From IMG/VR virus record IMGVR_UViG_3300046385_000071, positions 1 through 41,289 of that record: DNA of 41,289 nt; one strand, 5' to 3'. Position 1 is the stretch's first letter; each line of letters opens with the position of its first letter. Made by a program: the position numbers and the translations under genes. Shown here one piece after another: positions 7,661 through 28,726 of this stretch. The stretch comes from a virus. The notes under the pieces are model-generated. The model was given only the letters and a program-made list of their open reading frames with translations, did no database searches and was not told where the DNA came from.

Positions 7661-8299
7661 ATGTATAAAAAAATCACACATACGATTGTAGAAGAACACT
7701 TTGCGCATCCAATGGGCGTAAACATTGCAGCAGGTCACAAATTAGGCCGTCACAGCTTAACAGAGATTATGCCTAAAGATCAATTCAAAGCCTTTGTTGA
7801 CAATTACTTCATTGACTTAGAAGGCAAGCTAGTTGCCTTTGCTGATGCAGCGTTTGATAGTTCAAAAGACTTTCAATCAGCATTGGCCAATGCCATGGAC
7901 TTTGAAGCGCTAGGCGACACTATGGCAAAGTATTATGACGTTGAATTCAAAGAACGTTTTAATCAACAAATCGGCAATCAAATTATGCAATTAATGTACT
8001 ACTGGAGAAACATCAGCCGAAAGTTTGACAACACAGATACCATCAGCAGAATCAAACAAAGTCCTGTGTTTTTTGCACAATTGTTATTTCAATACAACAA
8101 TCTCTGGGACAGAGACATTGTTCGTTCATTGTTTGAAGAATTCTTCAATGAGTTTTTAACATTAGGCGATGCTAAATTGGCCAAGAACAAGGTCAATGAA
8201 ACTGCTTCATTGGATAGAATTGCTGTTGCTGGATCAAAGCTGTCTAACTATCTTGCCAATGGTCTTGTTCAACAACAACCTGAGTTGTTTATTGCGTAA
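7661..8299 (+). CDS. hypothetical structural-region protein, paralogue of the 4004 gene
   Basis: 212 aa, helical. The N-terminus MYKKITHTIVEEHF and the C-terminal LWDRDIVRSLF/SLDRIAV blocks match the 4004 protein in order. ATG 7661 has aagga 9 bases upstream. The stop overlaps the start of the protease gene. Function unknown; co-location with fibres suggests a virion or assembly role. Confidence 0.75.
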   Translation: MYKKITHTIVEEHFAHPMGVNIAAGHKLGRHSLTEIMPKDQFKAFVDNYFIDLEGKLVAFADAAFDSSKDFQSALANAMDFEALGDTMAKYYDVEFKERFNQQIGNQIMQLMYYWRNISRKFDNTDTISRIKQSPVFFAQLLFQYNNLWDRDIVRSLFEEFFNEFLTLGDAKLAKNKVNETASLDRIAVAGSKLSNYLANGLVQQQPELFIA

Positions 8300-8973
8300 T
8301 GCCAATGGGAATAGTCGATCTTCGAGAGTGGGCAAGTCCCGTCGAAGAACAATGGGATCTGGGTAGTTGCACTGCACAAGCAGTAATTGGTGCATATGAA
8401 CTACTGCTTAAAATGCACTACCCAGATCAGTTTGTAGATCTAAGCAGACTGTTTCTTTACTACAACGCTAGAAAACTAGACGGAAATATCAACGACGACA
8501 TAGGTGCGTATATTTCAACTGCTATTGAAGCCATTCAAACTTATGGCCTGTGCAGAGAAGACCTATGGCCGTACGATGTTTATAAATTTAAAACAGAACC
8601 AAATTGGAGATGTTATCATGATGGCAAGAAGCGAACTGTGACCAATGTTCGCGAAATACTTTCGCATGATGCTGTCATACAAACATTAGACAGCCAGTGT
8701 CCAGTTGTGGTAGGTGTTGCACTTTATGATGAGTTTTATAACGTTAGCAAATCTGCCACTGTTTTACCTTTGCCCCGATACCCCGACGATGTTATTGGTA
8801 GCCATGCCATGTGCGTAGTAGGGTACAATGACGCAAAGCAACAGTTCTTATTAAGAAACAGCTTTGGCAACGACTGGGGCGAACTTGGATATTTTTGGAT
8901 TCCTTATGCTTATGCTGACGAAAACTTTTCAGACATGTGGGCATTTGATGTGGATCTAAACGGCATATCTTAG
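8299..8973 (+). CDS. papain-like (C1A) cysteine protease
   Basis: 224 aa, the size of a mature C1A catalytic domain without propeptide. The active-site elements are present: Gln18 and Cys24 in EQWDLGSCTAQAV, His169 in GSHAMCVVGY, and Asn187 in LLRNSFGNDWGELGYFW, the counterpart of the papain NSWG..WG.xGY motif. Peptide-bond hydrolysis, or the reverse transfer, is the family reaction. It is last in the structural run and is followed by a terminator. It may be virion-associated, acting on host surface or on phage proteins. No propeptide or signal peptide is seen. Confidence 0.88.
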   Translation: MPMGIVDLREWASPVEEQWDLGSCTAQAVIGAYELLLKMHYPDQFVDLSRLFLYYNARKLDGNINDDIGAYISTAIEAIQTYGLCREDLWPYDVYKFKTEPNWRCYHDGKKRTVTNVREILSHDAVIQTLDSQCPVVVGVALYDEFYNVSKSATVLPLPRYPDDVIGSHAMCVVGYNDAKQQFLLRNSFGNDWGELGYFWIPYAYADENFSDMWAFDVDLNGIS

Positions 8974-9022: not shown

Positions 9023-9051
9023 TTGACCATTTGGCTCAGGACCTGTATAAT
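9023..9051 (+). promoter_or_regulatory. strong sigma70-like promoter of the accessory operon
   Basis: TTGACC at 9023 and TATAAT at 9046 with a 17-base spacer. It lies directly after a terminator and upstream of a run of small genes extending to 12391, so it probably drives early or middle expression by host RNA polymerase. Confidence 0.8.
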
Positions 9052-9082
9052 AAACACATAGACAGCAAAAAGGATGCCGCAA

Positions 9083-9367
9083 ATGAAGCAGAATCACACA
9101 ATGTACATCTACAAAGCAGATCGGCGTACCCGCAGCGGTGAGCGTCTTGTGTCTACTACTGTTTGGCGCGATCGTGATGAAGCCGAAATGAAGCGTGAAG
9201 TTCGTGAACTGCAATATGAACTGTGGCCTGTGAGCCGAGGCTTCCGCATTGAATTTCACCCCACAATGAAGACTGTGAAGAACTTGATGACAGGCGCAGA
9301 TGTCGAAATTGATCGTGACACTCCTTGGTGTTGCAATCCTGCTAGCGAATCCTACTGGAGCAACTAA
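9083..9367 (+). CDS. small hypothetical protein
   Basis: 94 aa, charged, with HTMYIYKADRRTRSGERLVS and DEAEMKREVRELQYELWPVS. ATG 9083 is preferred over 9074 because the aagga site at 9070-9074 is then 8 bases upstream rather than overlapping the start. First gene after the promoter. No family recognised. Confidence 0.75.
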   Translation: MKQNHTMYIYKADRRTRSGERLVSTTVWRDRDEAEMKREVRELQYELWPVSRGFRIEFHPTMKTVKNLMTGADVEIDRDTPWCCNPASESYWSN

Positions 9368-9368
9368 A

Positions 9369-9515
9369 ATGATGGACCATTTTGTTGTGCGTTATATTCC
9401 CGGGGGCATGAGCTTGTACCACAGCGGATACTGGTTGTGCCAACTGTGGGACCTGCGTGATAACACAGTTCACGAAGCTCCAATTAAAATGTTGCAAAAG
9501 GCAGATTACAAATGA
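9369..9515 (+). CDS. 48-aa hypothetical protein
   Basis: ATG at 9369 (a second ATG follows directly), stop at 9513. Product MMDHFVVRYIPGGMSLYHSG then YWLCQLWDLRDN; beta-rich and aromatic. A longer reading from an upstream non-ATG start would overlap the preceding gene by 68 bases and is not supported. The stop overlaps the next ATG. Confidence 0.65.
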   Translation: MMDHFVVRYIPGGMSLYHSGYWLCQLWDLRDNTVHEAPIKMLQKADYK

Positions 9516-9781
9516 ACGAACGAATTAAAGCGCTATTGATTCAGGCTCAAGACTTGGCTCGATCAGAAGTTGAGAACAACCCCAATATCAAACCCCCTTA
9601 TCATATCCCAGCAACTCAGGTACATGTGGGACTAGGCTTGTCTTATGAAAAGTTCGCCGAGTTGATTGTGCGAGAATGTTTGAGCATTGTTGAACCTACA
9701 GAAGACAGTGGTGACGAATGGTGTGTGACTCTTAAAGGAACTGCTGAAGAGATTAAAGAACATTTCGGAGTTGAAGAATGA
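9512..9781 (+). CDS. KFAELIV/HFGVEE-family small protein, copy 3
   Basis: 89-aa third copy of the family at 9 and 963: MNERIKALLIQAQ at the start, EKFAELIVRECLS in the middle, IKEHFGVEE at the end. The terminal DNA block is identical to the other copies even though they lie 8-9 kb away in a different operon. ATGA junctions on both sides. Confidence 0.85.
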   Translation: MNERIKALLIQAQDLARSEVENNPNIKPPYHIPATQVHVGLGLSYEKFAELIVRECLSIVEPTEDSGDEWCVTLKGTAEEIKEHFGVEE

Positions 9782-9954
9782 TTCGTATAATTCTATTTTG
9801 GTTTATCCTTTTTGCCTTGTTCTTTTTTGGGTTCAAGGTTCTAAGAAGTTTGTCCGGAAGTGAAGCATGGGCATTGACAAAGCTCACAGCCTATGCTATA
9901 CTATGTTCACTGTTAGCAACCGGCTTGCTGATTGGGTTTGTTGTTCTGTTTTAA
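9778..9954 (+). CDS. 58-aa two-pass membrane protein
   Basis: ATG 9778 overlaps the previous stop; TAA at 9952. The product starts MIRIILFWFILFALFFFGFK, has a polar loop with SGSEAW, and a second hydrophobic segment AILCSLLATGLLIGFVVLF. It is the first of several envelope-directed products in this operon. Confidence 0.65.
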   Translation: MIRIILFWFILFALFFFGFKVLRSLSGSEAWALTKLTAYAILCSLLATGLLIGFVVLF

Positions 9955-9963
9955 GGATCAATT

Positions 9964-10050
9964 GTGTTTTCAAATTTGGTTTTGCGTGTAATCTACCTTG
10001 CACTGGGTTTTAGTGTGTGTTTCTTTCTTTTTTCAACTGGAGTTCTTTAA
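9964..10050 (+). CDS. 28-aa single-pass membrane peptide, GTG start
   Basis: GTG at 9964 with aagga 7 bases upstream; TAA at 10048, directly followed by the next ATG. The peptide MFSNLVLRVIYLALGFSVCF is one hydrophobic segment. It fits the small gap exactly and its stop abuts the lipoprotein start. Speculative but consistent with neighbours. Confidence 0.45.
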   Translation: MFSNLVLRVIYLALGFSVCFFLFSTGVL

Positions 10051-10848
10051 ATGAATCGTGCTATTAAACTTTCTATCGTGGCTGCTGCTGTGGCTCTGAC
10101 CAGTGCCTGTACTCGAATTGAAACAGGTGAAGTTGGTGTCCGTGTGGGCTTTGACAAACAAGTGCAAAGTGGCGAGCTGTTGCCTGGTTCTTTTAACCAA
10201 ACCCTTGTGGGTACTGTGCTGACTTTCCCTGTCAAAGACGTTAACGTGGTTCTGGAGAATATGACTCCAGTGGCACGAGACAACTCAACCATGAAAGACT
10301 TTGACGCAGTTGTGGTCTACAACATCAATCCACAGGCCGTTGCCGAGCTGTACTCAACCAAGAACAAGAGCTTTCACGCTGAGTTCAAGGGTGATACTTA
10401 TGTGATGTACAACTATGTGGTGCAAAATGCTCGTAATGCTATCTACAAGGCAGCTCGCAAGTATGAAGCCTTGGACATGGCAGACAATCGCACTGACATG
10501 GAAAACTACATCAAGGACGAAATTGTTCGCAACTTGGCTGAAGAAAAGCTAGACGGTCCAATCAGCATCAGCCAAGTTATGATTCGTAACGTAGTGCCCA
10601 GTGACACTGTAGTCGAAAGTGCCAACGCCTTGGTTCGTAGCAAGAACGAACTCAAGCAGAAAGAAGTTGAAGTCAAAACTGCCGAAGCTGAAAGCCGTCG
10701 AATGGCAGCACTGGCCAACAACTCCGGTGCAAGTATTGCATTCATGCAAGCACAGGCCATGTTGAATATCAGTGAAGGTATCAAGAACGGCAAAGTGCAA
10801 ACTGTAGTTGTTCCTTCTAACATGACCAGCTTGATGCTGCCTAAGTAA
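10051..10848 (+). CDS. SPFH (band 7/prohibitin-like) lipoprotein
   Basis: 265 aa. A type II signal peptide with lipobox LTSAC (Cys20) implies lipid anchoring in the envelope. The body follows the SPFH pattern: TGEVGVRVGFDKQVQSGELL, then FPVKDVNVVLENM, DFDAVVVYNINP, and a long C-terminal helix KNELKQKEVEVKTAEAESRR typical of HflK/prohibitin coiled coils. The family scaffolds membrane proteases and lipid domains, normally through an N-terminal membrane helix; lipid anchoring is unusual. In a phage it could protect or remodel the infected envelope or block superinfection (inference). It overlaps an operon with another lipoprotein and a pilin-like protein. Confidence 0.85.
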   Translation: MNRAIKLSIVAAAVALTSACTRIETGEVGVRVGFDKQVQSGELLPGSFNQTLVGTVLTFPVKDVNVVLENMTPVARDNSTMKDFDAVVVYNINPQAVAELYSTKNKSFHAEFKGDTYVMYNYVVQNARNAIYKAARKYEALDMADNRTDMENYIKDEIVRNLAEEKLDGPISISQVMIRNVVPSDTVVESANALVRSKNELKQKEVEVKTAEAESRRMAALANNSGASIAFMQAQAMLNISEGIKNGKVQTVVVPSNMTSLMLPK

Positions 10849-10849
10849 T

Positions 10850-11098
10850 ATGACGAGAGCAATCATCTTGGCACTAGCGGTGGTTGCTCTCACCGCTTGT
10901 GACAAACGTCCTTTGGACCAGCGTGACTATTCCAAGACTTCGATGTCAAACATTCCTGAACTTGCAGACTGTGTTTACATCAAAATTGAGGATGTACGCA
11001 TCGTGCGGTGCCCCAAGAGTGACACTACAGTAACTTACGAAGTACCAAACGGCAAGACACGTCGAACAGTAACTACCACGGTAATCAACGACAAATGA
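10850..11098 (+). CDS. small lipoprotein
   Basis: 82 aa. The N-terminus MTRAIILALAVVALTACDKR has a lipobox LTAC (Cys17) followed by Asp, which in Enterobacteria signals retention in the inner membrane. The mature part is small and beta-like with two Cys (LADCVYIKIEDVRIVRCPKS). The start lies one base after the SPFH gene stop. Function unknown; a superinfection-exclusion lipoprotein is a possibility. Confidence 0.8.
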   Translation: MTRAIILALAVVALTACDKRPLDQRDYSKTSMSNIPELADCVYIKIEDVRIVRCPKSDTTVTYEVPNGKTRRTVTTTVINDK

Positions 11099-11352
11099 AA
11101 CAACGCGGATTCACACTAATTGAAATGATGATTGCTGTTATCTTTGCCTTGTGCGTGGTCATGCTAGGGGTAGATGCGGTTACTGGTGCCAGCAATGGCA
11201 ATACCATCAGCTACGGCGTAAACGGTATGACTGAAATGCGATGCATTGACGGGTATAAGTTTGTTGTTAGCCAGCAAGGTGTTACACGACAAGTCATGGA
11301 CGAGTTTGGTAAAGGCGTTCGTTGTGAAGTTCCCAGACCAGGAGGTTTTTGA
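11095..11352 (+). CDS. type IV pilin-like protein
   Basis: 85 aa. The N-terminus MKQRGFTLIEMMIAVIFALC is a classic class III prepilin signal: a short basic leader ending in Gly5, then FTLIE with Glu at mature position 5 and a hydrophobic helix. The host prepilin peptidase PilD would be expected to cleave after Gly5 and methylate Phe. The remaining 60 residues form a small domain with two Cys (MRCIDGYKF and VRCEVPRPGGF), much shorter than a major pilin, more like a minor pilin. It starts within the end of the lipoprotein gene and ends overlapping the next ATG, so it is not a stray host fragment. Confidence 0.85.
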   Translation: MKQRGFTLIEMMIAVIFALCVVMLGVDAVTGASNGNTISYGVNGMTEMRCIDGYKFVVSQQGVTRQVMDEFGKGVRCEVPRPGGF

Positions 11353-12428: not shown

Positions 12429-13646
12429 ATGCGATTACGTGAACTATTATCTGAAGTCAAAATTGACAACAAGCAAGGTGCTGGAGCAGTTCCTTTTAAT
12501 CAGGACGTGGACTACTTTGGTCTACAGGTTATGATGAAGCCCAGCACGTTCTTGAGACTGGCTGCGCCGCTGGGGCAAGAGCACAGTGCCGAGTTAGAAA
12601 AATATATTGCCAATGGCGGTGCCATTGGTGCACCTTTCTTGGAAATCAAAATTCCAATAGAATGGGACGACGGCGACTTCTCTAAGCCTGCACAAGTTGC
12701 AGGGCACGAAGGTCGCAATCGCATGACAGCCGTTCAAAAGCTAGAAGGCGATGCGCCAATTGAAGTACACATTTTCCCACGCGGTGGGTATCGTGCTAGA
12801 GATATTACTCCAGAATTCCGTAGGGCATTGGCTCGTGGCTTGCAAGCTGAAAAAGCGGCGAATGTTGTTACCGGACCGTTATTCGAAGAAGATTTAGAAG
12901 AAGGTTGGCGAGATACAATGGCCAATTTGGCTATTGCAAGTGGTGTTGCTGCTGGTGGAGTAGGCGGCATGATGGCAAAACAAGCTGCCCAAGACTACTT
13001 TAAAGAACCCACTGCCGTGGTTGCGCAAGCAACGACCAAGGCGCCAGAAGTACCTGGCACGTTTGCACAAGCTAAAAAATCCCCAAATGTCCCGGCGGCT
13101 GTAAAAGCCGGCCCAGAAGCACCAAAGAAGCTAAATGTGCAACCAATTACCAGCAATCCACTTGAAAGCGTATTGCTTAAAGTCGCAAAATCGTCAGGTC
13201 TGCAAGGTTCCGAACTTGCTGCTTTTATGGCGCAATGCGCTCACGAAACAATGGACTTTAAAAGACTAACAGAGTTTGGCGGTAGCTTGGACTTCCGCAA
13301 GTACGATCCAAAGTATGCCCCTAAAAAAGCCAAAGCACTTGGAAACAAGCAAGTAGGAGACGGGGCAAAATACAAAGGCCGCGGCTTTATTCAGATCACT
13401 GGGCGCTACAACTATAAACGTGCAGGCGAAGAACTTGGCTTACCGTTAGAAAAGCATCCAGAGTTGGCCGAAGATCCAGCAACAGCCGCTAAGATTGCAG
13501 TTTGGTTCTGGAAGCATCGTGTACAACCAAATGTGGACAACTTTAAAGATACCACTGGTGTTACCAAACAAATCAACCCAGGGCTGCGTGGTTTAGAAGA
13601 CCGTAAAGAAAACTTTAGAGATTACATGCAAATTGCAATGCAATAA
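12429..13646 (+). CDS. virion-type fusion protein: ParB-like domain plus GH19 lysozyme
   Basis: 405 aa. Residues 1-9 MRLRELLSE form a leader like the T4 capsid-targeting sequence (ends in Glu). Residues 25-130 contain QVAGHEGRNRMTAVQKLEGD, recalling the G-x-E-x-R-x-R core of ParB/sulfiredoxin-like domains. A hydrophobic Gly/Ala segment (164-183) and an Ala/Pro/Lys-rich linker follow. The C-terminal GH19 domain (about 245-405) shows AQCAHETMDF with the probable catalytic Glu273 and YKGRGFIQITGRYNY. It would cleave peptidoglycan, likely during entry if packaged. A second free GH19 enzyme lies at 28727. Confidence 0.85.
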   Translation: MRLRELLSEVKIDNKQGAGAVPFNQDVDYFGLQVMMKPSTFLRLAAPLGQEHSAELEKYIANGGAIGAPFLEIKIPIEWDDGDFSKPAQVAGHEGRNRMTAVQKLEGDAPIEVHIFPRGGYRARDITPEFRRALARGLQAEKAANVVTGPLFEEDLEEGWRDTMANLAIASGVAAGGVGGMMAKQAAQDYFKEPTAVVAQATTKAPEVPGTFAQAKKSPNVPAAVKAGPEAPKKLNVQPITSNPLESVLLKVAKSSGLQGSELAAFMAQCAHETMDFKRLTEFGGSLDFRKYDPKYAPKKAKALGNKQVGDGAKYKGRGFIQITGRYNYKRAGEELGLPLEKHPELAEDPATAAKIAVWFWKHRVQPNVDNFKDTTGVTKQINPGLRGLEDRKENFRDYMQIAMQ

Positions 13647-13657
13647 CACTATTTTGA

Positions 13658-13676
13658 TTGGCACAAGTTTTGCCAA
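13658..13676. terminator. hairpin between late genes
   Basis: TTGGCA (13658) and TGCCAA (13671) around a 7-base loop, followed by an A-run. Read on the minus strand it has a T-run; on the plus strand it is a weak end signal lying just before the next late promoter. Confidence 0.35.
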
Positions 13677-13681
13677 AAAAA

Positions 13682-13718
13682 CTAAATATAATACACAGTT
13701 GTTGATGATTCGACAACT
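13682..13718 (+). promoter_or_regulatory. late promoter candidate with 5-prime hairpin
   Basis: CTAAATA at 13682-13688 followed at the expected transcript start by a stem AGTTGT (13697) / ACAACT (13713). The gene at 13737 then has a normal aaaagga ribosome site. A 5-prime terminal hairpin may stabilise the transcript. Confidence 0.5.
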
Positions 13719-13736
13719 ACGATAAAAGGAAAAGAA

Positions 13737-13931
13737 ATGTTATCATTTTTAAAGAAGTTATTTGGATTTGGCGGCGCACCAGTTGCTGAAGTTGCACCAT
13801 ATAAAGTTGAAGCACCAGTAGAAGTTGTTGCTGAAGTTGAAGTTAAGGCTGCTCCAAAGAAAAAAGCTGCCGCTAAAAAGCCAGCAGCTGAAAAGAAGCC
13901 ACGTGCCAAGAAAGCTCCTAAGGCTGAATAA
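13737..13931 (+). CDS. small protein with histone-H1-like basic tail
   Basis: 64 aa. The start MLSFLKKLFGFGG is an amphipathic helix, the middle is acidic and Val/Glu-rich (PVEVVAEVEVK), and the last 30 residues are Lys/Ala/Pro-rich (APKKKAAAKKPAAEKKPRAK), as in histone H1 tails. DNA binding or neutralising charge in the head is plausible. It has a late promoter and stands in the cargo block. Stop and next ATG overlap. Confidence 0.75.
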   Translation: MLSFLKKLFGFGGAPVAEVAPYKVEAPVEVVAEVEVKAAPKKKAAAKKPAAEKKPRAKKAPKAE

Positions 13932-14746
13932 TGTTTTTAAACGATATCACTCCACGAGTAACTGTATATGAATCCCTGCGTCAAGTAAACGGACGTTGGG
14001 CCCGTGTAAACACGGAAACCAATACAGTTGTGGAGTTTTATCACGGCACCAAAGCAGTTATTGCAGAAGGTGGTAATGTTTTTAAAGACGCAAAAGGCCA
14101 GGAACTAACACAGCGTATCAATCAAGCCGATGTAGAACCAACTGTTCGATTTCTTGAAAAGATTACTGGTATCCCGCATTTTGAACATGCGTTAGGTACA
14201 ACTGGCAAAACGCCTACAAGCGGCGACTTGGACATTGGTATTCCACCTGGCGTTACCAAAGAAGAATTAGTTGCTAAACTAAGCGCATGGTGCAGCCAGC
14301 ATGGTGAGGATTCGACTGCTTTTATTAGAAAGTCTGGTATCAGCGTACACTTTAAAACGCCAATCGGCGGCAGTCCTGAGCGTGGTTATGTTCAAACAGA
14401 CTTTATGTTTGTTCCTAATTTGGAGTTTGCAAAGTTTGCAATGGCTTCGGATCCACATAGTAAGTATCGCGGCGCTCATAAACAAATTCTACTAAGTAGC
14501 ATTGCTAAAGTAAAAGGCTATACGTGGAACCCAACAACTGGTCTTATTGACCGTGCTACTAAGAAGTTAGTAGACAACGGTGATAATCCAGATCATATTG
14601 CCGAGCTATTGTTTGGATCAGGTTTTGATCGCACCAGCTTAACCAGCGTTGAAGCTGTACTTAGAGCACTGGAAAATAATCCCCAGCGCGAAGCGTTGAT
14701 AGCTGATGCTAGAGAAACACTAGGTCGCGATGGAGTTGAAATTTAA
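13931..14746 (+). CDS. nucleotidyltransferase-like protein
   Basis: 271 aa. LGTTGKTPTSGDLDIGIPPG (about residues 95-114) matches the GS-x-D-x-D core of the nucleotidyltransferase superfamily, with further acidic residues at YVQTDFMFVP as the third carboxylate. A C-terminal helical part follows (FDRTSLTSVEAVLRAL). The start MFLNDITPRVTVYESLRQ could be a leader cut after YE. It likely transfers an NMP to an unknown acceptor. Family-level assignment only. It sits between the basic protein and the 500-aa protein with tight junctions. Confidence 0.7.
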   Translation: MFLNDITPRVTVYESLRQVNGRWARVNTETNTVVEFYHGTKAVIAEGGNVFKDAKGQELTQRINQADVEPTVRFLEKITGIPHFEHALGTTGKTPTSGDLDIGIPPGVTKEELVAKLSAWCSQHGEDSTAFIRKSGISVHFKTPIGGSPERGYVQTDFMFVPNLEFAKFAMASDPHSKYRGAHKQILLSSIAKVKGYTWNPTTGLIDRATKKLVDNGDNPDHIAELLFGSGFDRTSLTSVEAVLRALENNPQREALIADARETLGRDGVEI

Positions 14747-16249
14747 ATGTTATTACGTCACATATTTGAAACTAGAATTGAAGTACTAATCGAGGGTCGT
14801 GGATTAGCTGCTCGTGTTCCTGGTGAGCAATTTAAAAACCCACAAGGCGATATCATTACGTTTCAAAGCCTAGACTTCTTTCCCGAGCGTGGTCAATTTG
14901 CTTCTGCTGAAGAAATGCAATTGGCAATTGATGCCGAAGCTAAGGGTAAAAACATTCATTGGACTAACAAGTCAAACTCGGGCACATTGGCATTTGCCAT
15001 TGCTACATTTACAGATGCTGATAAGAAGGCTTATTACTTAGGTCGTTATTACAAAACTATCTCTGCTAACCGTATTCAAAACGATTGGCAACACAATGAC
15101 ATTCCTGGCGGTTTTAAGTATCAAAGCAAAGCAGGACAAAAAGAAAACACTGGTTATAAACCAAGTGAAGTACTAACACAGTTCCAAAACAATGATGTTG
15201 ATTCTATCTCAAGACAAATCATTGCTAAATTTGGCCAAGGCAGCGACGAAGTTGTTGCACTAAATGCTTTCTTAACTGCCAACCAGTTTCCTATTACATT
15301 TCCCAAAGGCAACATGAACATGACAGCATTTCGCGATTACTTCTGTGAAATGTTACAACCACTGGCCTTGTTAATGGACAAGCCGATTAAAGGCAATGCA
15401 GGTGAAGCTGCTGACATTTTCTTTGGCAAAGGCGGCTATAAAGACTGTACTATCAGCTTTAACAACAGCGTCACTGGTGGCTTGTATGACAGCCTGATTG
15501 TCAACAACCAAGGCAAGCAAATTAAATTATCAAGCAAAGGTGCTTCTGGCGCCAGTGCTTCCGTTGTTAACTTACTAAAAAGTATTAACGAATTAAAAGT
15601 TGCTCCTAAGGGTGCTGCACTACTTGAAAAGCACAAAGTAGTTGTTGAAATTTTAAAAGACATTGATGCCAAGGGTCACTTTGGCGCTCCGTTAAAGTTA
15701 GCAGTAGACTACAAAATGATCAGCTCCGAAGATGCTACATTTGCAATGACTCTAAAGAAATACGGTCCCGACGATCAAATTGATTGGCAAGGCCATACCA
15801 AACTAGAAGCACTGTACAACGGACGCAAAGCACGCGACATGCGTGCTATTATTCCAATGGAACACATGATCAGTGCTATTGCTTATAAAATTGCCGACTA
15901 CGTGAATGAAAATACCAACTTTGGCAAGGCAGCTTCTGACATTCTAAACCACTCTGCATTGGTACAGATGTACACCAACTGTTCCGAAACCAAAGACACA
16001 ATCAGCATTGACAGTTTTAATGCAGTTTACCCAAGTGAAACTGTTACTGGTGTACTACTTGACGCTAGTAAAGCATACATGAGTACACAAGGCAAAGGCA
16101 ACTTCACGTTCAAAATTCTCAAGAATGGTGCCAAAGATGTTGCGGTTGCCGGTGATGTTGCTGCACCTGCTACACCAAAGCCTAAGAAGATTGCACCTAA
16201 AGACAAGCCTGCAATGACAACTACTTCCACAACCCGCGAACTAAAGTAA
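14747..16249 (+). CDS. large putative packaged protein, family not recognised
   Basis: 500 aa. The leader MLLRHIFETRIEVLIEGRGL contains two possible prohead-protease sites, after FE and, better, LIE before Gly. The body is a mixed alpha/beta protein with MNMTAFRDYFCEMLQPLALL and ISFNNSVTGGLYDSLIVNNQ, then a Pro/Lys-rich C-terminal tail (ATPKPKKIAPKDKP). It follows the nucleotidyltransferase-like gene without a gap. Function unknown; context suggests a capsid-internal protein. Confidence 0.7.
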   Translation: MLLRHIFETRIEVLIEGRGLAARVPGEQFKNPQGDIITFQSLDFFPERGQFASAEEMQLAIDAEAKGKNIHWTNKSNSGTLAFAIATFTDADKKAYYLGRYYKTISANRIQNDWQHNDIPGGFKYQSKAGQKENTGYKPSEVLTQFQNNDVDSISRQIIAKFGQGSDEVVALNAFLTANQFPITFPKGNMNMTAFRDYFCEMLQPLALLMDKPIKGNAGEAADIFFGKGGYKDCTISFNNSVTGGLYDSLIVNNQGKQIKLSSKGASGASASVVNLLKSINELKVAPKGAALLEKHKVVVEILKDIDAKGHFGAPLKLAVDYKMISSEDATFAMTLKKYGPDDQIDWQGHTKLEALYNGRKARDMRAIIPMEHMISAIAYKIADYVNENTNFGKAASDILNHSALVQMYTNCSETKDTISIDSFNAVYPSETVTGVLLDASKAYMSTQGKGNFTFKILKNGAKDVAVAGDVAAPATPKPKKIAPKDKPAMTTTSTTRELK

Positions 16250-16273
16250 CTGCCCTGTACAAACAGGGTAGTT
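16248..16273 (+). terminator. strong hairpin after the 500-aa gene
   Basis: AACT-g-CCCTGT, loop acaa, ACAGGG-t-AGTT. A near-perfect 10-bp stem starts at the stop codon. There is no T-run, so it may be a transcript 3-prime end structure rather than a full terminator. Confidence 0.5.
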
Positions 16274-16293
16274 AATTATCAACTGATCCAAAT

Positions 16294-16333
16294 TTAAATA
16301 GTAATGCAGTACTACTCTGTACTAACGCATTAC
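16294..16333 (+). promoter_or_regulatory. late promoter candidate and hairpin abutting the start codon
   Basis: TTAAATA at 16294-16300 is followed at once by GTAATGC-AGTAC, a 6-base loop, and GTACT-aac-GCATTAC (16301-16333). The 12-bp interrupted stem ends one base before the ATG at 16335 and no ribosome site is seen. The structure probably controls translation of this gene. Confidence 0.5.
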
Positions 16334-16334
16334 A

Positions 16335-17111
16335 ATGGATCCACTAACACTTTTTGCACTTGCTAACGGAGCCGTCTCCGCAGTCAAGGCTGGGTGTAAG
16401 TTATACAAAGATATCAAAGGTGCTGCTGGTGAAGTCAAGGATGTACTTAAAGATCTTGACGATCAATTCCATAAGATCTACACACCTGATCGTCCCGCGC
16501 CTCCAGAAGCTAAAAAGCAACTAGTTGAAGAAAAAGCTCGCATTGTCGAGTTAAACAAACGATCCCACGAAACTACGGGCATCTACCAAGAAATTGGCGA
16601 ACACCTTGGCACGTACTATGACAACTTTTATAAGTGCATTGCAGTGTTTGAAGAAGAAGAACGCCGTGCTCAATTTGAAGTATACACTGGTACCGAAAGT
16701 TTAAGTAAACGTGCGCTACAGCGTGTGTTAATGCGCAAGCAGCTAGAGCAAATGAGTGTAGAACTTCGTGAACTAATGATTTACCAATGTCCTCCAGAGT
16801 TAGGTGCATTACACACAGAAGTTGAAGACATGATGAAAGTAATGGGCAAAGAACAACAAGTTCTAGTTGCAAAGCAAATGCAATATGCAGCGGCCCAAGA
16901 ACGTAGACGCCAAGCTAAAATTAAACAACTACAAGAACATATCGTGCTGGGCATTGTTGGTATTGCTGCTGCATGTGTTATTGGGTTTTCAATGGTATTA
17001 GTTGCACAAAGCAGGATAGAAATGTATCCGCATTTGGGCACAGACTTGATTCCCAAGAATGAACAACAACGTCAAGCAGAATCAGTTCCGAAGAGGTACA
17101 CTGGTAGATAA
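16335..17111 (+). CDS. coiled-coil membrane protein
   Basis: 258 aa. It begins MDPLTLFALANGAVSAVKAG, has long charged helices (AGEVKDVLKDLDDQFHKIY; LSKRALQRVLMRKQLEQMSV), and one membrane segment near the C-terminus (IVLGIVGIAAACVIGFSMVL) with a short tail. It could span the envelope during infection or be a virion protein. The start has no Shine-Dalgarno but follows a structured leader. No family recognised. Confidence 0.75.
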   Translation: MDPLTLFALANGAVSAVKAGCKLYKDIKGAAGEVKDVLKDLDDQFHKIYTPDRPAPPEAKKQLVEEKARIVELNKRSHETTGIYQEIGEHLGTYYDNFYKCIAVFEEEERRAQFEVYTGTESLSKRALQRVLMRKQLEQMSVELRELMIYQCPPELGALHTEVEDMMKVMGKEQQVLVAKQMQYAAAQERRRQAKIKQLQEHIVLGIVGIAAACVIGFSMVLVAQSRIEMYPHLGTDLIPKNEQQRQAESVPKRYTGR

Positions 17112-17113
17112 CA

Positions 17114-17120
17114 CTAAATA
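17114..17120 (+). promoter_or_regulatory. late promoter candidate, 5 bases before the ATG
   Basis: CTAAATA ends 5 bases before the amidoligase ATG at 17126 (acact in between). Predicted transcript starts at or one base from the AUG; there is no ribosome binding site. Confidence 0.55.
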
Positions 17121-17125
17121 ACACT

Positions 17126-19189
17126 ATGAAATTACGTGACGTTAACCCCCAACCTGTTGTGCTAGATGAACAAGTACTAGCTGAAATCAACATGAGTCCT
17201 TCTAGCTTAAAGCAGTTGGCCAGCCAAATCAATGCCAAAGCTGGCATGGAATTTGAAATGATTGTGCCCGGAGCTGATAACGAAGGCGGAGAACAAGAAC
17301 CAGATTATGATAGCGATCAACGTACTCGTAGCTTTTCTGACATTGAAGACTTCTTTCTTGACAACGACTACAACGGCCGTCGTGAAGTACGAGAATTAAT
17401 CGAAAAGCTACAGGAACGATTTTACGAGTGGGAAGCCGAAAAGGTTGACAATGATTGGGCGTCCGACGGGGAAGACTACTTGCGTGATTGGATCAATAAC
17501 AATGAATGGAACGAAGAAGATAAAATTCGCGAACATTTAGAGTCGCAAGGCTTAGATGAAGAAGCTGTTGATGCTGCTATGTCAGCCGGCAACGGTGCTC
17601 CGCGCTATTCTAAACTAAGCGATCAACAAGCTGCTCGTGAAGCAGATGAAGCATATGATCATTACATGGAAGCAAAAGCTGCTGCCGAGGAAGAGTTTGA
17701 CGAACTAGTTACTAGTGAGTGGGAAGATCGTGGCAGCATGTATGATTCGGCTTTTGATGAATACAGCGATGAAAATCGTGGCACAGGAGATGAGGCCGAC
17801 TTCTTAGAAGATTCTGGCTTGACTTACATGACTGACATTGCCAACGAATTTAGCATTACTTGGCCGTATTGGACTAGCACAGGTGGCGATCGTAGCACTG
17901 AAGAAATTGCAAGCGACTTTGCTGATGCAGTAAATCGTTCTGTTAAGGCCAGTGGTGCTTATCATTCAGGTGGCGTAGAGCGTCCAGGTGCTAATAACTC
18001 GCACTACATTGTAGAACCTGATGCTAGTTTAGATCCAGATGACAGCAACGATGGTGGCTTAGAATTTGTAAGCCCTGCATTGCCAATTAATGAACTGCTA
18101 AGTGACTTAGACAAAGTTGCCAAGTGGGCTAGCATGTATGGTTGCTATACTAACGACTCAACTGGCTTGCACATCAACGTAAGCGTTGAAGGTTGGTCAG
18201 GCGATATGGGTAAGTTAGATTATGTTAAGTTGGCATTATTAATGGGCGACAACTATATCTTAGATAAGTTTGGTCGTGCTGGTAATACATATTGCAAAAG
18301 TGCAATGAACGAAATTAAAACCCGCGTTGGTCAACGTCCCGAAGATGCAGGTGCGTTATTACAAAAGATGAAGACTGGTTTAGATAGTTTGGCTAGTAAA
18401 GCTATTCACTCTGGCGTTACCAGCAAGTATACAAGTATCAATACCAAAGATGGCTACATTGAGTTTCGTAGTCCCGGCGGCGATTGGTTAGGCGAGTATG
18501 CAGCAGATCCGGGCAAGATTACCAACACATTACTTCGTTTCGTTGTAGCATTAGATGCCGCAGTAGATCCAGAAAAGTACAAACAAGAGTACTTGAAAAA
18601 GTTGTATGCTATTTTACAACCAAAAACTCACAACGACACGCTGGCTTACTTTGCACAATATGCCGCTGGTGCAATGCCTAAGGCAGCACTAAAGAGCTTT
18701 GTTCGCCAAGCACAATTAGAACGCAAGTCTGGCAAAGAAAAGCTGTCAGGTACAAAAACTGCAACATCATTTGACAAAGGTAACTGGGGTATTTGGATTG
18801 GGGCCAGCGAACGTTTTGCACGTTTGCCAGGTGAGTATCCAGCAGGTCAAGGCGTACCGCTACGCAGATTCCCAAGTGAAGATGCAGTTAATGCATACTT
18901 GGCTCAGACACGCGAAGAAAATCCACGTATGCGTTCAGACGTTGAAGCTCGTGAAATTCCAGCAGATTATGAAGCACCTGCTACTCCTGTAGGGCGTCCA
19001 GTAGCACCAGCAGGTGGTGGCGAATTTACTGGACAATGGATCATTCGTGACGGTAGTGGTCGCGAGCTATATAGATTTGGTGGCATTGGCAATAGCCAAA
19101 GCGATGCGAACCGTCGTGCTATACAATGGTTGACACAAAACGGATACGGACACGGAACCGAAGTTGAAGTTGTTCCGGAAATGAGATAA
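17126..19189 (+). CDS. putative amidoligase (amidoligase_2 type), packaged
   Basis: 687 aa. The family signature is recognisable: GMEFEMIVPG (residues 40-49, the G-x-E-x-E strand), a long acidic insertion (50-260), VEPDASLDPDDSNDGGLEFV with the substrate-binding D-x-S-L and E-F-V-S-P, TGLHINVS near 346, and YIEFRSPGGDW near 444. These enzymes are predicted to ligate amines to carboxylates using ATP, in peptide tagging or gamma-glutamyl metabolism. The C-terminal 90 residues form a separate small domain (QWIIRDGSGRELYRFGGIGN). The start MKLRD plus a possible cut after VLAE places it in the capsid-targeted group. A gamma-glutamylcyclotransferase-like gene lies 4 kb downstream. Confidence 0.8.
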   Translation: MKLRDVNPQPVVLDEQVLAEINMSPSSLKQLASQINAKAGMEFEMIVPGADNEGGEQEPDYDSDQRTRSFSDIEDFFLDNDYNGRREVRELIEKLQERFYEWEAEKVDNDWASDGEDYLRDWINNNEWNEEDKIREHLESQGLDEEAVDAAMSAGNGAPRYSKLSDQQAAREADEAYDHYMEAKAAAEEEFDELVTSEWEDRGSMYDSAFDEYSDENRGTGDEADFLEDSGLTYMTDIANEFSITWPYWTSTGGDRSTEEIASDFADAVNRSVKASGAYHSGGVERPGANNSHYIVEPDASLDPDDSNDGGLEFVSPALPINELLSDLDKVAKWASMYGCYTNDSTGLHINVSVEGWSGDMGKLDYVKLALLMGDNYILDKFGRAGNTYCKSAMNEIKTRVGQRPEDAGALLQKMKTGLDSLASKAIHSGVTSKYTSINTKDGYIEFRSPGGDWLGEYAADPGKITNTLLRFVVALDAAVDPEKYKQEYLKKLYAILQPKTHNDTLAYFAQYAAGAMPKAALKSFVRQAQLERKSGKEKLSGTKTATSFDKGNWGIWIGASERFARLPGEYPAGQGVPLRRFPSEDAVNAYLAQTREENPRMRSDVEAREIPADYEAPATPVGRPVAPAGGGEFTGQWIIRDGSGRELYRFGGIGNSQSDANRRAIQWLTQNGYGHGTEVEVVPEMR

Positions 19190-19193
19190 TACT

Positions 19194-20543
19194 ATGAAAA
19201 TACAAGACTTAATCGAAGGTTGCGCTCACGGAGAGTACTACTGCTCCACAGACAAAAAGTGGAAGTGCCGTCAAGGCCCCAAGCAAAGTAGAAAGGTGGC
19301 AGAAGGCTTACCACAGACTCTACGCAAGGTTGTTCCTGGACACGCCAAGCGTGAGATTGATAAGAAGATGGATGCCGGAAAGTTTGGCAAAACTGATGCG
19401 GATAAAGATGCCAACTTTCAACGCTATAAAAAGATTCAAGACAAGTTAGACGAGTTTGCACCAGATGGGTTTAACGGCGGCGATGACGGAGAAGAGTTTA
19501 ATCCAAGATTAGCCAAAATGGCGTATGATGAAGGTGTTGTTAAAGGTGTGAGCCTTGCTGACGGTGCTACATTAGAACGAGCAATGGTAATAAATGATTG
19601 GGACAAACACGACGGTGGTATCTATAAACAACACTTTGCTAAAGGCTTCAAAGCAGGTCGTATGAATAAAATCCGTCACGGTAATAAACAATACAATCTT
19701 AACTTAAAGTTGATGAAAGACGGAAGTATTCGTCACGGTGAGCAAGGTGTGGCGGAAGGCGGATATCCTGAAGTAGACCACATGCCGGGACCTGTTACAA
19801 AAAGAACACAGACTGGTTGCAAGAGATGTCACGGCAAAGGGTATGTTTATAAAACACCCGACGGTGAAACTCATCCAATGAATCGTCCAGATGCCAAGAA
19901 ATACAAATGTGGTAAGTGTGATGGTATTGGGTTCGTTAAAGTAGCAGAGCAAGGTGTGGCGGAAGGCTCAACAGATTTGGTTCAGATTGAATACTGGCAA
20001 CAAGAGACAATGGAGTCAGGTAGATGGGTCAAAACAAAACTCATTCCTCGTGCCACAGCAGAAAAAATAGTAAATTCTTTTGAGCGTGGTGAAATTGTTG
20101 ATGTAGAGCAAGGTGTGGCGGAAGAAAAGCAACGCCTAGATCCCAAGTGCTGGGACGGTTATAAAAAAGACGGCACTAAGATGAAGGGTGGCGTTAGAGT
20201 CAATAACTGCGTCAAAGAAGAATTAGAAGAAACTTATGACGGTGACGAGTTCTTTGAAGCATACGGTGAGTTATGGTTTAATGAAGACGAGCAGTTAGAC
20301 GAAGCCGAATACCAAGGACGTTCAGTTCCGCTTGGAAAGCCTATGCAAGGCGATGTTAAAAAGTTCAAAGTGTACGTAAAAGATCCTTCAACTGGCAACG
20401 TTAAAAAAGTAAACTTTGGCGATCCAGACATGAAGATTCGTAAGAGTAATCCAGCGGCTCGTCGTAGCTTCCGTGCTAGACACAACTGCGATAATCCGGG
20501 ACCTCGCACAAAGGCCCGTTATTGGTCATGTAGGGCCTGGTAA
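19194..20543 (+). CDS. polyprotein with GVAEG linkers, polyprotein A
   Basis: 449 aa. Leader MKIQDLIE then Gly9 matches a prohead-protease site. Further sites: VAE37-G, then EQGVAE-G ending at 188 and 257, and EQGVAE-E at 310. The pieces between look like separate domains: 38-188 helical; 189-257 with two C-x2-C-x-G-x-G motifs (CKRCHGKG, CGKCDGIG) like half a DnaJ zinc finger; 258-310 a small alpha/beta unit; and 311-449 starting with LDPKCWDGYKKDGTKMKGG and ending in an Arg/Cys-rich segment RHNCDNPGPRTKARYWSC. The linker DNA is nearly identical at each site. Products of cleavage would be injected effectors if packaged (inference). Confidence 0.75.
   Translation: MKIQDLIEGCAHGEYYCSTDKKWKCRQGPKQSRKVAEGLPQTLRKVVPGHAKREIDKKMDAGKFGKTDADKDANFQRYKKIQDKLDEFAPDGFNGGDDGEEFNPRLAKMAYDEGVVKGVSLADGATLERAMVINDWDKHDGGIYKQHFAKGFKAGRMNKIRHGNKQYNLNLKLMKDGSIRHGEQGVAEGGYPEVDHMPGPVTKRTQTGCKRCHGKGYVYKTPDGETHPMNRPDAKKYKCGKCDGIGFVKVAEQGVAEGSTDLVQIEYWQQETMESGRWVKTKLIPRATAEKIVNSFERGEIVDVEQGVAEEKQRLDPKCWDGYKKDGTKMKGGVRVNNCVKEELEETYDGDEFFEAYGELWFNEDEQLDEAEYQGRSVPLGKPMQGDVKKFKVYVKDPSTGNVKKVNFGDPDMKIRKSNPAARRSFRARHNCDNPGPRTKARYWSCRAW
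19740..19760 (+). repeat. GVAEG linker repeat, polyprotein A, copy 1
   Basis: Consensus gagcaaggtgtggcggaagg plus c, coding EQGVAEG. Predicted cut after Glu188. Identical in all 21 bases to the copy at 19947. Confidence 0.8.
19947..19967 (+). repeat. GVAEG linker repeat, polyprotein A, copy 2
   Basis: Same 21 bases as the copy at 19740, coding EQGVAEG; predicted cut after Glu257. Confidence 0.8.
20106..20126 (+). repeat. GVAEG linker repeat, polyprotein A, copy 3
   Basis: Identical through the first 19 bases (gagcaaggtgtggcggaag), then codes Glu instead of Gly: EQGVAEE. The cut may be weaker here. Confidence 0.75.
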
Positions 20544-20544
20544 C

Positions 20545-21171
20545 ATGTTTTATATTGTATATAAGATAACCAATTTACTAAACAATAGATACTATATTGG
20601 ACGTCATGCTACTAAAAATATCATTGACTCCTATATGGGTAGCGGTATCGGTATAATAAATGCAATCAAAAAGTATGGCAAAGAAAACTTCAAAAAAGAA
20701 ATAATTGCAATGGCATTTGATCGTAGCTCGTTATGGGATCTTGAAAAACTTATTGTAAACGAAGATGTTGTCAAGGATCCGTTATCTTATAACATGGCAT
20801 ATGGTGGTAAGCACTATCTTCATGGTTTAAAAACATACAACTACGATGCTTTCATTGCACATCAGTCTATGGCAGGTAAAAAGTATGCGGAAAATTATAA
20901 ACCCAAAGAAAAATCTTGGCATCAAAAAGGCGGAAGCGCAAGCTCTACAAAAAGAAGCCAACAATATGTTTATAAGATTACTACTAATGCCGGAGAAGAA
21001 TTTACTGTTAATGGGATTGAATTTAAAGCACTTTGCCTAGAGAAAGGCTGGAACTATAATACCTTACATTGGAAGCAAAGCATAGGCAAAACTATTAGCA
21101 AAGGTCAACACACAGGGTTTCTAGTAGAGCAGTTGAGCACATACAAAGAAAAGGTGTTAACCATATGCTAA
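20545..21171 (+). CDS. GIY-YIG homing endonuclease
   Basis: 208 aa. The N-terminal domain has FYIVYKITNLLNNRYYIGRH (the GIY and YIG strands), then DSYMGSGIGIINAIKKYGKE and WDLEKLIVNEDVV with the conserved Glu, and SYNMAYGG. The C-terminal half is basic with a DNA-binding module (VYKITTNAGEEFTVNGIEFK). It is a free-standing mobile endonuclease placed one base after polyprotein A and overlapping the next cargo gene, without disturbing either reading frame. Confidence 0.92.
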   Translation: MFYIVYKITNLLNNRYYIGRHATKNIIDSYMGSGIGIINAIKKYGKENFKKEIIAMAFDRSSLWDLEKLIVNEDVVKDPLSYNMAYGGKHYLHGLKTYNYDAFIAHQSMAGKKYAENYKPKEKSWHQKGGSASSTKRSQQYVYKITTNAGEEFTVNGIEFKALCLEKGWNYNTLHWKQSIGKTISKGQHTGFLVEQLSTYKEKVLTIC

Positions 21172-21581
21172 TACGAGAACTATTTGAACCTGGTAAAAGC
21201 TGGCAGTGGGAGTTCACTGGCAGCGAAGAAGCCATTGCTACTTTTCATGTAGGTGAAGTGCCTTACATGTTTCATGCTTATGGGGCTGATGGTGAATGGG
21301 AAGCTGAATTCAAACAGCATGGTTCCAAATTGAGTCGAACGCAAAAGTTTGGCTTAACTGGCACAGGCAACTCGGCTGAAGTCATGGGCACTGTAGTCGA
21401 CATCATGCGAGCGTTTTTAAGCAAATATAAGAATCAAATCCAAGTACTGACATTCTCTGCTAAAGAAGATTCACGCCAGGGTCTATATGCTCGTATGGTC
21501 AAACGACTGTTACCGTCCTGGACGATGAAGCAGTCTGGTGAGCACTTTGTATTAGTTGCTCCAAAAGATCCTTCCCAATAA
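21165..21581 (+). CDS. small capsid-targeted-type protein, acetyltransferase-like end
   Basis: 138 aa. The leader MLIRELFE-P resembles the other cargo leaders, although Pro after Glu would hinder cleavage. The body is an alpha/beta unit whose end reads VLTFSAKEDSRQGLYARMVK then RLLPSWTM. The pattern F-x-A-x-x-x-S-R-x-x-LY-x-R-x-x is frequent in small phage proteins with a GNAT-like fold, though no acetyl-CoA loop is evident. Last coding region before the structured non-coding segment. Confidence 0.75.
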   Translation: MLIRELFEPGKSWQWEFTGSEEAIATFHVGEVPYMFHAYGADGEWEAEFKQHGSKLSRTQKFGLTGTGNSAEVMGTVVDIMRAFLSKYKNQIQVLTFSAKEDSRQGLYARMVKRLLPSWTMKQSGEHFVLVAPKDPSQ

Positions 21582-22200
21582 CGCTATCTCTGGCGATTGG
21601 GCCTGATCTTGCAGTCGTAAATACTGCACAATAATCAAGTGTAACGCAAGGTTAGCAGGCCAGACGATATTCTGCCGGGTAAGCATCTAAGTGTGTGCCG
21701 ATGCCCAATTCTGTGAGTACACCACGGACTAGTATTCACTACCCGTCTCAGTACGGATGCCTTAAAACGATGCCCCTCAGGGTTTTACGTTTGAATACCA
21801 GTATACAGGTTGAGTGCAGCGCAAGCTGACTTAGTTCCAATGCGTCCATAACAACACATGACACCGAAGTTGTTTTAAAAATCGTAATAGGTAGGGTAAG
21901 GTACAGAGCCCAGAGACGCGGAAACCCAAACACCTATTGTCCAGTGTGGCTGATCGTCTAAGCAAACATCTCATCCGGCATCCTTAACAGGGTGTCGTAT
22001 GGCCTCCCAATCTAGCAAAACTATTCATCTTAGATCAAATTTTTCGTGTTAACCAAAACTACAATAGTCACAAAAGTTAATCCGCAAAAAATTGGATCTA
22101 CTTTACCTGTACCGTAAAATTTTATAGTGCCGCAAAAATATGGACAACAGAATTGGTGTACTGTATATGGCTTTTAATGAGTTAATACGAGCTGATGTGA
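21582..22200 (+). ncRNA. candidate large structured RNA
   Basis: About 620 bases with no plausible gene on either strand. Several local hairpins can be drawn: TGCAGT/ACTGCA (21610/21622); GCATC/GATGC near 21685; AGT-g-CAGC with a GNRA loop GCAA and GCTG-ACT (21813-21831); TAAAAC/GTTTTA near 21762; and CATCC/GGGTG near 21978. GTGTG near 21692 can pair with a TACAC downstream, a possible pseudoknot. CGTAAATA at 21616 could be its late promoter. Size and phage context recall large RNAs such as GOLLD, but this identity is untested. The last 120 bases are A/T-rich and unstructured. Confidence 0.5.
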
Positions 22201-22212
22201 TTCATTCAACAG

Positions 22213-22241
22213 TTGACATTGGCCAAAGACTGTGTTATATT
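22213..22241 (+). promoter_or_regulatory. sigma70-like promoter with extended -10
   Basis: TTGACA at 22213 and TATATT at 22236 with a 17-base spacer; TG lies one base upstream of the -10. It overlaps the control region of the 22260 gene. Confidence 0.65.
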
Positions 22242-22248
22242 AAAACAA

Positions 22249-22255
22249 GTAAATA
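22249..22255 (+). promoter_or_regulatory. late promoter candidate, 4 bases before the ATG
   Basis: GTAAATA ends 4 bases before the ATG at 22260. Together with the host-type promoter just upstream, this gene may be expressed both early and late. Confidence 0.45.
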
Positions 22256-22259
22256 ACTG

Positions 22260-22973
22260 ATGACACAACAACTGAACTTTGACTTTTCCGCGGCACCTGA
22301 GTGCAATCCCAGTTACTTTTTTCCCCTTCAATTAAAGTTGGATCCGCAGGAAAAACAAAACTTCATTGAGTCAACACTGGTGCCGCTCCGACTCAAATTT
22401 GAAGGATCAAGCTACGGTTTATCAAATGTGGGCAATGCCGACGCCAGCTTTCCTGTTACCATTGCCAATACCAATGCATTTATAAAACCCTTGGGTCTAA
22501 AAACTCGTCGCATGACCTTGTTTTTGAGTGCAAAAAATCAAACCAGTTGGGTAATACATTGCGATGGTGTCAAAGGGCCAAATGGACCAACTGTGCTGGA
22601 AGCACGGCTAAGCTACTATGAAATTGCAGACTCGCCAGGTGCAATACGATGGTGGGATCATCTGCCAAACACAGGAATCAATGTTATGCCCCCAGATCAA
22701 CAAAAAGGCACACAAGAACGCATCAGTTGCTTTGCTGACTGTGCGGCCCAGCTGCGAGACAATCAAATAGCCTGGTCAGATATCCCGCCTCCGGACTTTT
22801 CTGTGGTGTCATCAGTGCCCAGTGCAATATTGAGAACAAATCGCTTTCATCATGTTATACAAGGCAGCGGTTTTAGAGTCACTGTCAGCTGTCAGCTGGT
22901 CTGGGAGCATGATGGCAGTCCCGAAGGCGTTTGGCAACACATTCAAAACAACATGCATTTATTGGAAATTTAA
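22260..22973 (+). CDS. dioxygenase-like (double-stranded beta-helix) protein
   Basis: 237 aa. TSWVIHCDGVKG provides an H-x-D motif and LRTNRFHHVIQGSGFRVTVS a distal His followed by Arg, arranged as in Fe(II)/2-oxoglutarate or aspartyl-hydroxylase-like beta-helix proteins (H-x-D...H...R). The predicted role is hydroxylation of a protein or small molecule. The overall match is at motif level only; a non-catalytic cupin remains possible. It overlaps the cyclotransferase-like gene by TAATG, so the two are coupled. Confidence 0.55.
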   Translation: MTQQLNFDFSAAPECNPSYFFPLQLKLDPQEKQNFIESTLVPLRLKFEGSSYGLSNVGNADASFPVTIANTNAFIKPLGLKTRRMTLFLSAKNQTSWVIHCDGVKGPNGPTVLEARLSYYEIADSPGAIRWWDHLPNTGINVMPPDQQKGTQERISCFADCAAQLRDNQIAWSDIPPPDFSVVSSVPSAILRTNRFHHVIQGSGFRVTVSCQLVWEHDGSPEGVWQHIQNNMHLLEI

Positions 22974-23540: not shown

Positions 23541-23603
23541 TTATAATTATTTTCAACTCTATATTTACCAAGGTAATGCTTGTGTGAGTTTGTTTTCAAT
23601 AAC

Positions 23604-23643
23604 GATAAATAGAACAGAGGATAATGTGTAAAAACAATAAATA
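23604..23643 (+). promoter_or_regulatory. two late promoter candidates in tandem
   Basis: GATAAATA at 23604-23611 and AATAAATA at 23636-23643. The second ends 5 bases before the ATG at 23649 and would give a leaderless transcript; the first would give a leader of about 33 bases. Confidence 0.55.
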
Positions 23644-23648
23644 TATCT

Positions 23649-28725: not shown

Positions 28726-28726
28726 T

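Follow-up and report, generated by a model that had tools for sequence, protein, structure and literature searches.

A recurrent gene pair of a small two-helix membrane protein and an SPFH lipoprotein in phages and prophages

Genes and promoters of the string

The window, by which we mean the entire stretch of DNA analysed, corresponds to a viral record of 41,289 bases in IMG/VR. Within positions 9778-11352 it holds five ORFs on the + strand that are separated by gaps of no more than 9 bases or joined by short overlaps. Together with two promoters, they are arranged as follows:

9023-9051, + strand: upstream sigma-70 promoter, TTGACC-17-TATAAT, near-consensus; precedes an ORF at 9074-9367 and the whole gene string
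9778-9954, + strand: mp1, 58 aa, two predicted membrane helices, putative partner of the SPFH protein
9874-9902, + strand: internal sigma-70 promoter, TTGACA-17-TATACT with extended -10; lies inside mp1 and reads into mp2 and the SPFH gene
9964-10050, + strand: mp2, 28 aa, GTG start, one helix, optional
10051-10848, + strand: SPFH (Band 7) lipoprotein, 265 aa, predicted lipidated Cys20 (codon 10108-10110)
10850-11098, + strand: small lipoprotein, 82 aa, lipobox LTAC-D with Cys17 followed by Asp; lineage-specific
11095-11352, + strand: mini-pilin, 85 aa, prepilin cleavage motif, one helix, a head of ~40 residues and two invariant cysteines; optional

An earlier note on this DNA had described five consecutive overlapping or abutting genes, and the reading frames and their coordinates were confirmed. 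Its view that every product carries an envelope signal is likewise supported by the sequence, in the form of lipoboxes, hydrophobic helices and the prepilin motif. In place of the single promoter that it had assumed, however, we find two near-consensus sigma-70 sites, at 9023-9051 and 9874-9902, and both are kept in relatives. The upstream site has 11 of the 12 consensus bases, and the corresponding position of L087-L089, the three closest contigs, as well as of L075/L101, L112, L113 and L066, matches 11-12 of 12. Shine-Dalgarno-like sequences are found ahead of mp2 and the SPFH gene, and the fact that the later genes of the string overlap or abut suggests that their translation is coupled. 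The nearby DNA of this spot had no match among phage records.

Two further genes of the immediate surroundings deserve mention. A papain-like cysteine peptidase (8299-8973; Peptidase_C1, 6.6e-15), retained at 52-73% in the closest relatives, is encoded just upstream of the first promoter. At 9512-9781 the window encodes a member of a small-protein family ending in KFAELIVREC...IKEHFGVEE, with paralogues in L053, L107, L112, L113 and other loci; this family occupies varied places around the SPFH gene in many relatives, sometimes with more than one copy per locus.

The SPFH lipoprotein and its two-helix neighbour

By its profile matches the 265-aa protein is a real member of the SPFH / Band 7 superfamily. 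It matches Pfam Band_7 at 4.2e-17 with 63.2 bits (cut-off 23.6) over profile positions 2-175 of 176, and PHROG 200, annotated "lipoprotein", at 1.1e-31 over positions 85-330 of 379. Relatives are encoded in 482 viral contig stretches, the best 80 of these 482 showing 84-93% identity, and in 212 phage records (tblastn, E up to 0.01), mainly Kuttervirus-like Salmonella/E. coli phages and Acinetobacter phages, with Synechococcus phage BUCT-ZZ01 as the nearest among them (46.5%, tblastn). The family is further present in 709 of 5,426 complete E. coli genomes, where about half of its places are on plasmids. A pN/pS of 0.21 in the mature part indicates strong purifying selection. In the PDB, a profile of distant family members has QmcA as its best match (4.6e-4), followed at lower strength by HflK, prohibitin and stomatin.

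The lipobox noted earlier on this protein is real, as Cys20 is invariant in a 21-member family alignment. A cysteine stands at this position in all but one of 102 extracted homologues, the exception being S-CREM1, and a few others miss the strict lipobox pattern yet keep the cysteine. A lipid-anchored SPFH domain had been regarded as unusual; it is in fact how proteins of PHROG 200, a large phage family, are normally built, so that the lipobox is the rule among phage SPFH proteins and not an oddity, with lipidation itself being a prediction. Members of PHROG 200 likewise consist of an SPFH domain of ~260-300 aa, usually with a lipobox, and include CBA120 gp099, Sajous1 gp200 (PMC10892097) and the proteins of GIB1 (PMC13239085), DLP5 (PMC5834331) and 44RR (ORF098c, PMC1524935). 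In 44RR and the cyanophages S-CREM1 and B23, however, the N-terminus is hydrophobic and the lipobox cysteine is missing. The SPFH lipoprotein thus belongs to an already known, unnamed phage family, whose genes have been recorded, with no assigned function, since 2006 at the latest. On the function of phage SPFH proteins our literature search returned genome papers only; the lipoprotein appears in three of these singly and without a function (PMC13239085, PMC5834331, PMC10892097), and phages go unmentioned in a survey of prokaryotic SPFH proteins from 2009.

The residue behind the lipobox cysteine differs between members of the family. According to the Lol rule of E. coli, an Asp after the Cys retains a lipoprotein in the inner membrane, and a Thr in this place would route it to the outer membrane. 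The E. coli members of the family carry Cys-Asp, whereas the protein of the window has Thr after its Cys, and for this reason the membrane in which it resides is uncertain. Note that chromosomal SPFH lipoproteins, ~55% identical to the phage protein, also occur in Massilia, Duganella and Pseudoduganella (L134-L142), with chromosomal neighbours that are conserved in some of these loci; in the loci inspected, a two-helix gene was not found upstream. Based on these chromosomal relatives, the host of the phage may be a member of the Burkholderiales.

The papers treat PHROG 200 as a single gene, but in our data it is paired with a two-helix protein. Immediately upstream of the SPFH gene, 93 of 104 close loci contain the end of a two-helix ORF, which is exactly 58 aa long in 82 of these 93; among the other loci, several are truncated or encode a form of 53-58 aa. 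Between the two genes lies mp2, the stop of which abuts the SPFH start codon; 45 loci keep an ORF of exactly 28 aa in this position, with an LRPLYFxLGF motif and a pN/pS of 0.36. At this size mp2 falls below the limit of the ORF listing. Pfam gave no match for mp1, and NCBIfam none for mp1 or the two-helix forms of E. coli. A search of phage records with the mp1 sequence produced no hits, and the partner in distant phages was therefore sought by position.

In this way a two-helix ORF of 53-92 aa was located directly upstream of the SPFH gene in 17 of 20 phage or prophage lineages with distantly related SPFH proteins. The 17 comprise the phages BUCT-ZZ01, S-CREM1, B23, phiAB441, Bhz15, R2919, At2, CBA120, phiEa2809, Paxi, BUCTxx99, Klebsiella phi15.1 and Rhizobium IG49 along with lambdoid, P2-like, SSU5-like and P1-like elements of E. 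coli, the prophage-type names being our reading of gene content. The pair thereby ranges over cyanophages, Acinetobacter phages, Ackermannviridae, Stenotrophomonas, Rhizobium and E. coli elements, and AM24, 44RR and X1 are the three lineages without such an ORF. Two of the two-helix ORFs are unannotated and overlap or abut the SPFH gene, namely those of the P1-like plasmid pCREC-532_2 (L155, 3230-3463) and of phiEa2809 (L148, 2307-2501). In the same regions, 7 of 101 further annotated small genes have two helices as called by the same simple hydropathy rule (Fisher p 1.5e-12, a nominal value because the set includes related lineages, with four SPFH proteins from E. coli that are alike, and because unannotated ORFs were sought in front of SPFH genes and not in the background set).

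Profile comparison gave no support for homology of the two-helix proteins between phage groups; as far as these comparisons reach, what the groups share is the position and form of the ORF. The two-gene core of a small two-helix protein and an SPFH lipoprotein is more strongly supported than the earlier note could know, and we consider it likely that mp1 and the SPFH protein work together. No description of the two-helix partner or its generality emerged from a literature search that covered openly accessible papers and a minority of preprints. The constant neighbour, unannotated in some records, is a concrete candidate partner for the SPFH protein, and since lambdoid, P2-like and P1-like elements carry the pair in E. 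coli, it lends itself to study in a laboratory strain.

The promoter within mp1 has to be considered separately from the peptide. At least 10 of its 12 consensus bases are kept in 61 of 64 distinct mp1 genes, and 57 of the 64 reach 11 or 12 of 12, compared to 5.2% of background windows from the same loci. It usually lies at nucleotide offset 96 of mp1 and is shifted by 12 nt in four genes, a displacement which argues that the promoter DNA is selected apart from the peptide. Strong host-type promoters of this kind suggest early expression. As a separate observation, the phages of loci L001-L080 seem rich in strong host-type promoters, also within genes, with ~5% of 177-base background windows on the + strand holding a sigma-70 site with 11-12 of 12.

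The same region allows for the reading that mp1 is mainly a promoter-bearing spacer and that the SPFH protein acts alone, as the most conserved mp1 residues (LTK...Y-[AS]-I) coincide with codons that form the promoter hexamers, where synonymous change is held back (pS 0.47 versus 0.73 in codons 1-31). Those codons, which lie outside the promoter, nevertheless retain a pN/pS of 0.53, the length of the ORF is nearly fixed and its place unmoved where the promoter shifts by 12 nt, and distant phages retain a two-helix ORF of other sequence. We therefore judge a spacer function improbable.

The small lipoprotein and the mini-pilin

The last two genes of the string have a different distribution. The 82-aa lipoprotein matches PHROG 902 at 8.8e-10 and has relatives in only three other contigs, at 96%; compared to the exclusion protein Cor, the match was at chance level (0.17). 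The 85-aa product exceeds the curated cut-offs of both Pfam N_methyl (PF07963; 5.4e-6, 26.2 bits versus 21.2) and TIGR02532 (24.3 versus 16.3), and by these matches it is a genuine prepilin-type protein. It shares this cleavage and methylation motif with type IV pilins and minor pseudopilins, but the usual pilus subunits are much larger than its ~85 aa with a head of ~40 residues. Full pilin and pseudopilin models such as GspH and ComGC align with no more than its N-terminal 15-30 residues, at scores well under the cut-offs. Relatives were found in 29 viral contigs at 49-72%, and distant ones in two more; the motif is kept in nearly all of them, Cys50 and Cys77 are invariant, and pN/pS is 0.21 in the head versus 0.56 in the helix. 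In our searches the family defined by this head was found solely in phage contigs.

Among 50 large contigs with the SPFH gene, which mostly measure 40-370 kb, 49 show no prepilin-type protein. Conversely, 20 of the 31 mini-pilin contigs, many of which are fragments, lack a homologue of the window-type SPFH protein, although one of the 20 has a more distant Band_7 protein. Where both genes are present, the mini-pilin gene starts within ~0.8 kb downstream of the SPFH gene in 10 of 11 contigs with differing genes in between, a count that is not independent as the 11 contigs are related. An independent case is Aeromonas phage 44RR, in which the SPFH gene (098c) is followed by a mini-pilin gene (097c), both Pfam matches having been listed already in PMC1524935. 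In Xanthomonas phage X1, a mini-pilin gene is ~2.3 kb from that of a different, flotillin-like SPFH protein, and BUCT-ZZ01 has both genes ~12 kb apart. These cases support a link between SPFH and mini-pilin genes that is real but optional. The literature search, again of openly accessible papers and a minority of preprints, gave no description of this neighbourhood as a recurring pattern. We also observed a contig of jumbo-phage size (L117 / G031, 291,658 bases) that encodes a small prepilin-type protein and a 527-aa Band_7 ORF ~10 kb apart.

Across the loci, the first peptide and the SPFH protein are almost inseparable, the second peptide occurs in about half, and most loci lack the lipoprotein and the mini-pilin; only the three closest contigs, L087-L089, keep the whole block. 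The earlier note had named scattering of the genes in relatives as evidence against its model. Such scattering is seen for the last two genes and not for the first three. If that model is read as one exclusion or protection complex of all five products, the tight packing of the genes, the intact block in L087-L089 and the position of the mini-pilin gene beside SPFH in 10 of 11 contigs speak for it. With the lipoprotein confined to three other contigs and the prepilin-type gene missing beside SPFH in nearly all large contigs, as well as with 20 of 31 mini-pilin contigs devoid of the window-type SPFH, we find a five-part complex unsupported and very improbable. As a general unit it is largely ruled out by the co-occurrence counts.

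Possible roles at the host envelope, and wider surroundings

HflK and HflC hold their SPFH domains on the periplasmic side, and solved SPFH proteins oligomerise into a ring or cage. The phage protein, if exported and lipidated as predicted, would also be held at the periplasmic face of the envelope and may assemble in the same manner. Made early from strong host-type promoters, it would act with mp1 as its dedicated membrane partner to remodel or shield a patch of the host inner membrane, either keeping out phages that arrive later or safeguarding membrane integrity and protein quality control. In the lineage of the window, the lipoprotein and the mini-pilin would have been added to this core; the mini-pilin is probably a substrate of the host's prepilin peptidase, and its target may be type IV pili or type II secretion. 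We favour this early, periplasm-facing SPFH ring that remodels the inner membrane as a tentative explanation, with a chance that we put slightly below even, and regard exclusion or envelope protection as a reasonable guess for the role of the module.

The place that mp1 would take has a parallel in bacteria. Operons of bacterial stomatins and flotillins such as YbbK-YbbJ and YuaG-YuaF couple an SPFH gene to a membrane-protein partner of the NfeD family (PMC2636767). The phage pair likewise has a conserved adjoining membrane-protein gene (93 of 104 close loci, 17 of 20 lineages), and mp1 would thus fill the operon slot of NfeD. The phage partner, however, is not of the NfeD family, as it has 53-92 aa and two helices and no NfeD-type soluble (beta-barrel) domain, and the NfeD-linked SPFH proteins have a membrane helix where the phage protein has a lipid anchor.

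An early envelope module is favoured by its genomic context. In temperate elements the pair is placed in early or accessory regions, and in CBA120 and phiEa2809 SPFH has an exclusion gene no more than two genes away, the one in CBA120 being a PHROG 1510 gene next but one to it. Exclusion proteins of the T4 Imm type and of PHROG 1510 are also small membrane proteins of early phage genes, although neither mp1, the other two-helix proteins nor SPFH matched any exclusion family in sequence. Several points weigh against the favoured explanation: the two-helix proteins of the phage groups are not detectably homologous, so that the neighbour could be convergent or functionally unrelated; AM24, 44RR and X1, and likewise the Oxalobacteraceae chromosomal relatives, lack the two-helix ORF; the Thr after the Cys would in E. 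coli send the SPFH protein of the window to the outer membrane, away from mp1; and the lineages of the association test are partly related.

The main rival is control of FtsH through mimicry of HflKC. A phage SPFH protein would here join or replace the periplasmic HflK/HflC cage around FtsH and alter degradation by the protease, sparing phage membrane proteins or early regulators. The periplasmic orientation implied by the lipobox is as expected for such a mimic, a profile of distant SPFH members reaches HflK, and for the prophage members of E. coli the best matches are the HflC and HflK models (3e-6 and 3e-5), albeit with 26 bits against a cut-off of 134. The window protein, on the other hand, has no NCBIfam match, and the top match of the profile is QmcA rather than HflK. 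HflK and HflC form a pair with helix anchors, whereas the phage protein is a single SPFH gene with a lipid anchor, and its tie to FtsH is hypothetical. The gene is also present in strictly lytic phages, which rules out lysogeny control through FtsH as its general role, and the constant two-helix neighbour is left unexplained. On balance, we take such mimicry to be rather unlikely.

Alternatively, the SPFH lipoprotein might stabilise the host membrane during infection or against a membrane-acting defence, without excluding other phages. Bacterial SPFH proteins act in membrane stress (PMC8581546, PMC10434171), and the very wide spread of the gene in lytic and temperate phages would fit such a general protection. 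The sequence, however, offers nothing specific to it, and a search with PADLOC, whose models cover defence only, gave no match to a known defence or counter-defence family. We rate this possibility slightly lower still than HflKC mimicry.

If the pair does form a phage-made membrane microdomain as favoured above, phages would have a novel means of controlling the host envelope, and SPFH scaffolds would be tied to exclusion or counter-defence. In its widest form, many unrelated phages, and prophages or phage-plasmids in about one eighth of complete E. coli genomes, would carry a membrane-microdomain system in which a periplasm-facing SPFH ring and a private two-helix partner, made early, protect or close the inner membrane, with a mini-pilin recruited in some hosts with type IV pili. 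We hold this broader proposal to be possible rather than probable.

Apart from the module, the window shows further features downstream. Many long proteins encoded in 12429-28725 (starts at 12429, 14747, 17126, 19194, 21165 and 23649) share a similar short N-terminal motif with the variants MRLRELLSE, MKLREI, MLIRELFE, MKLRDV and MKIQDLIEG, a motif reminiscent of the leaders that target T4 internal head proteins to the capsid, and several of them also have QGVAEG repeats. Two separate GH19 chitinase/endolysin-like proteins are encoded in the one fragment, at 12429-13646, as called by Pfam and PHROG matches, and at 28691-29368, as read from the sequence.
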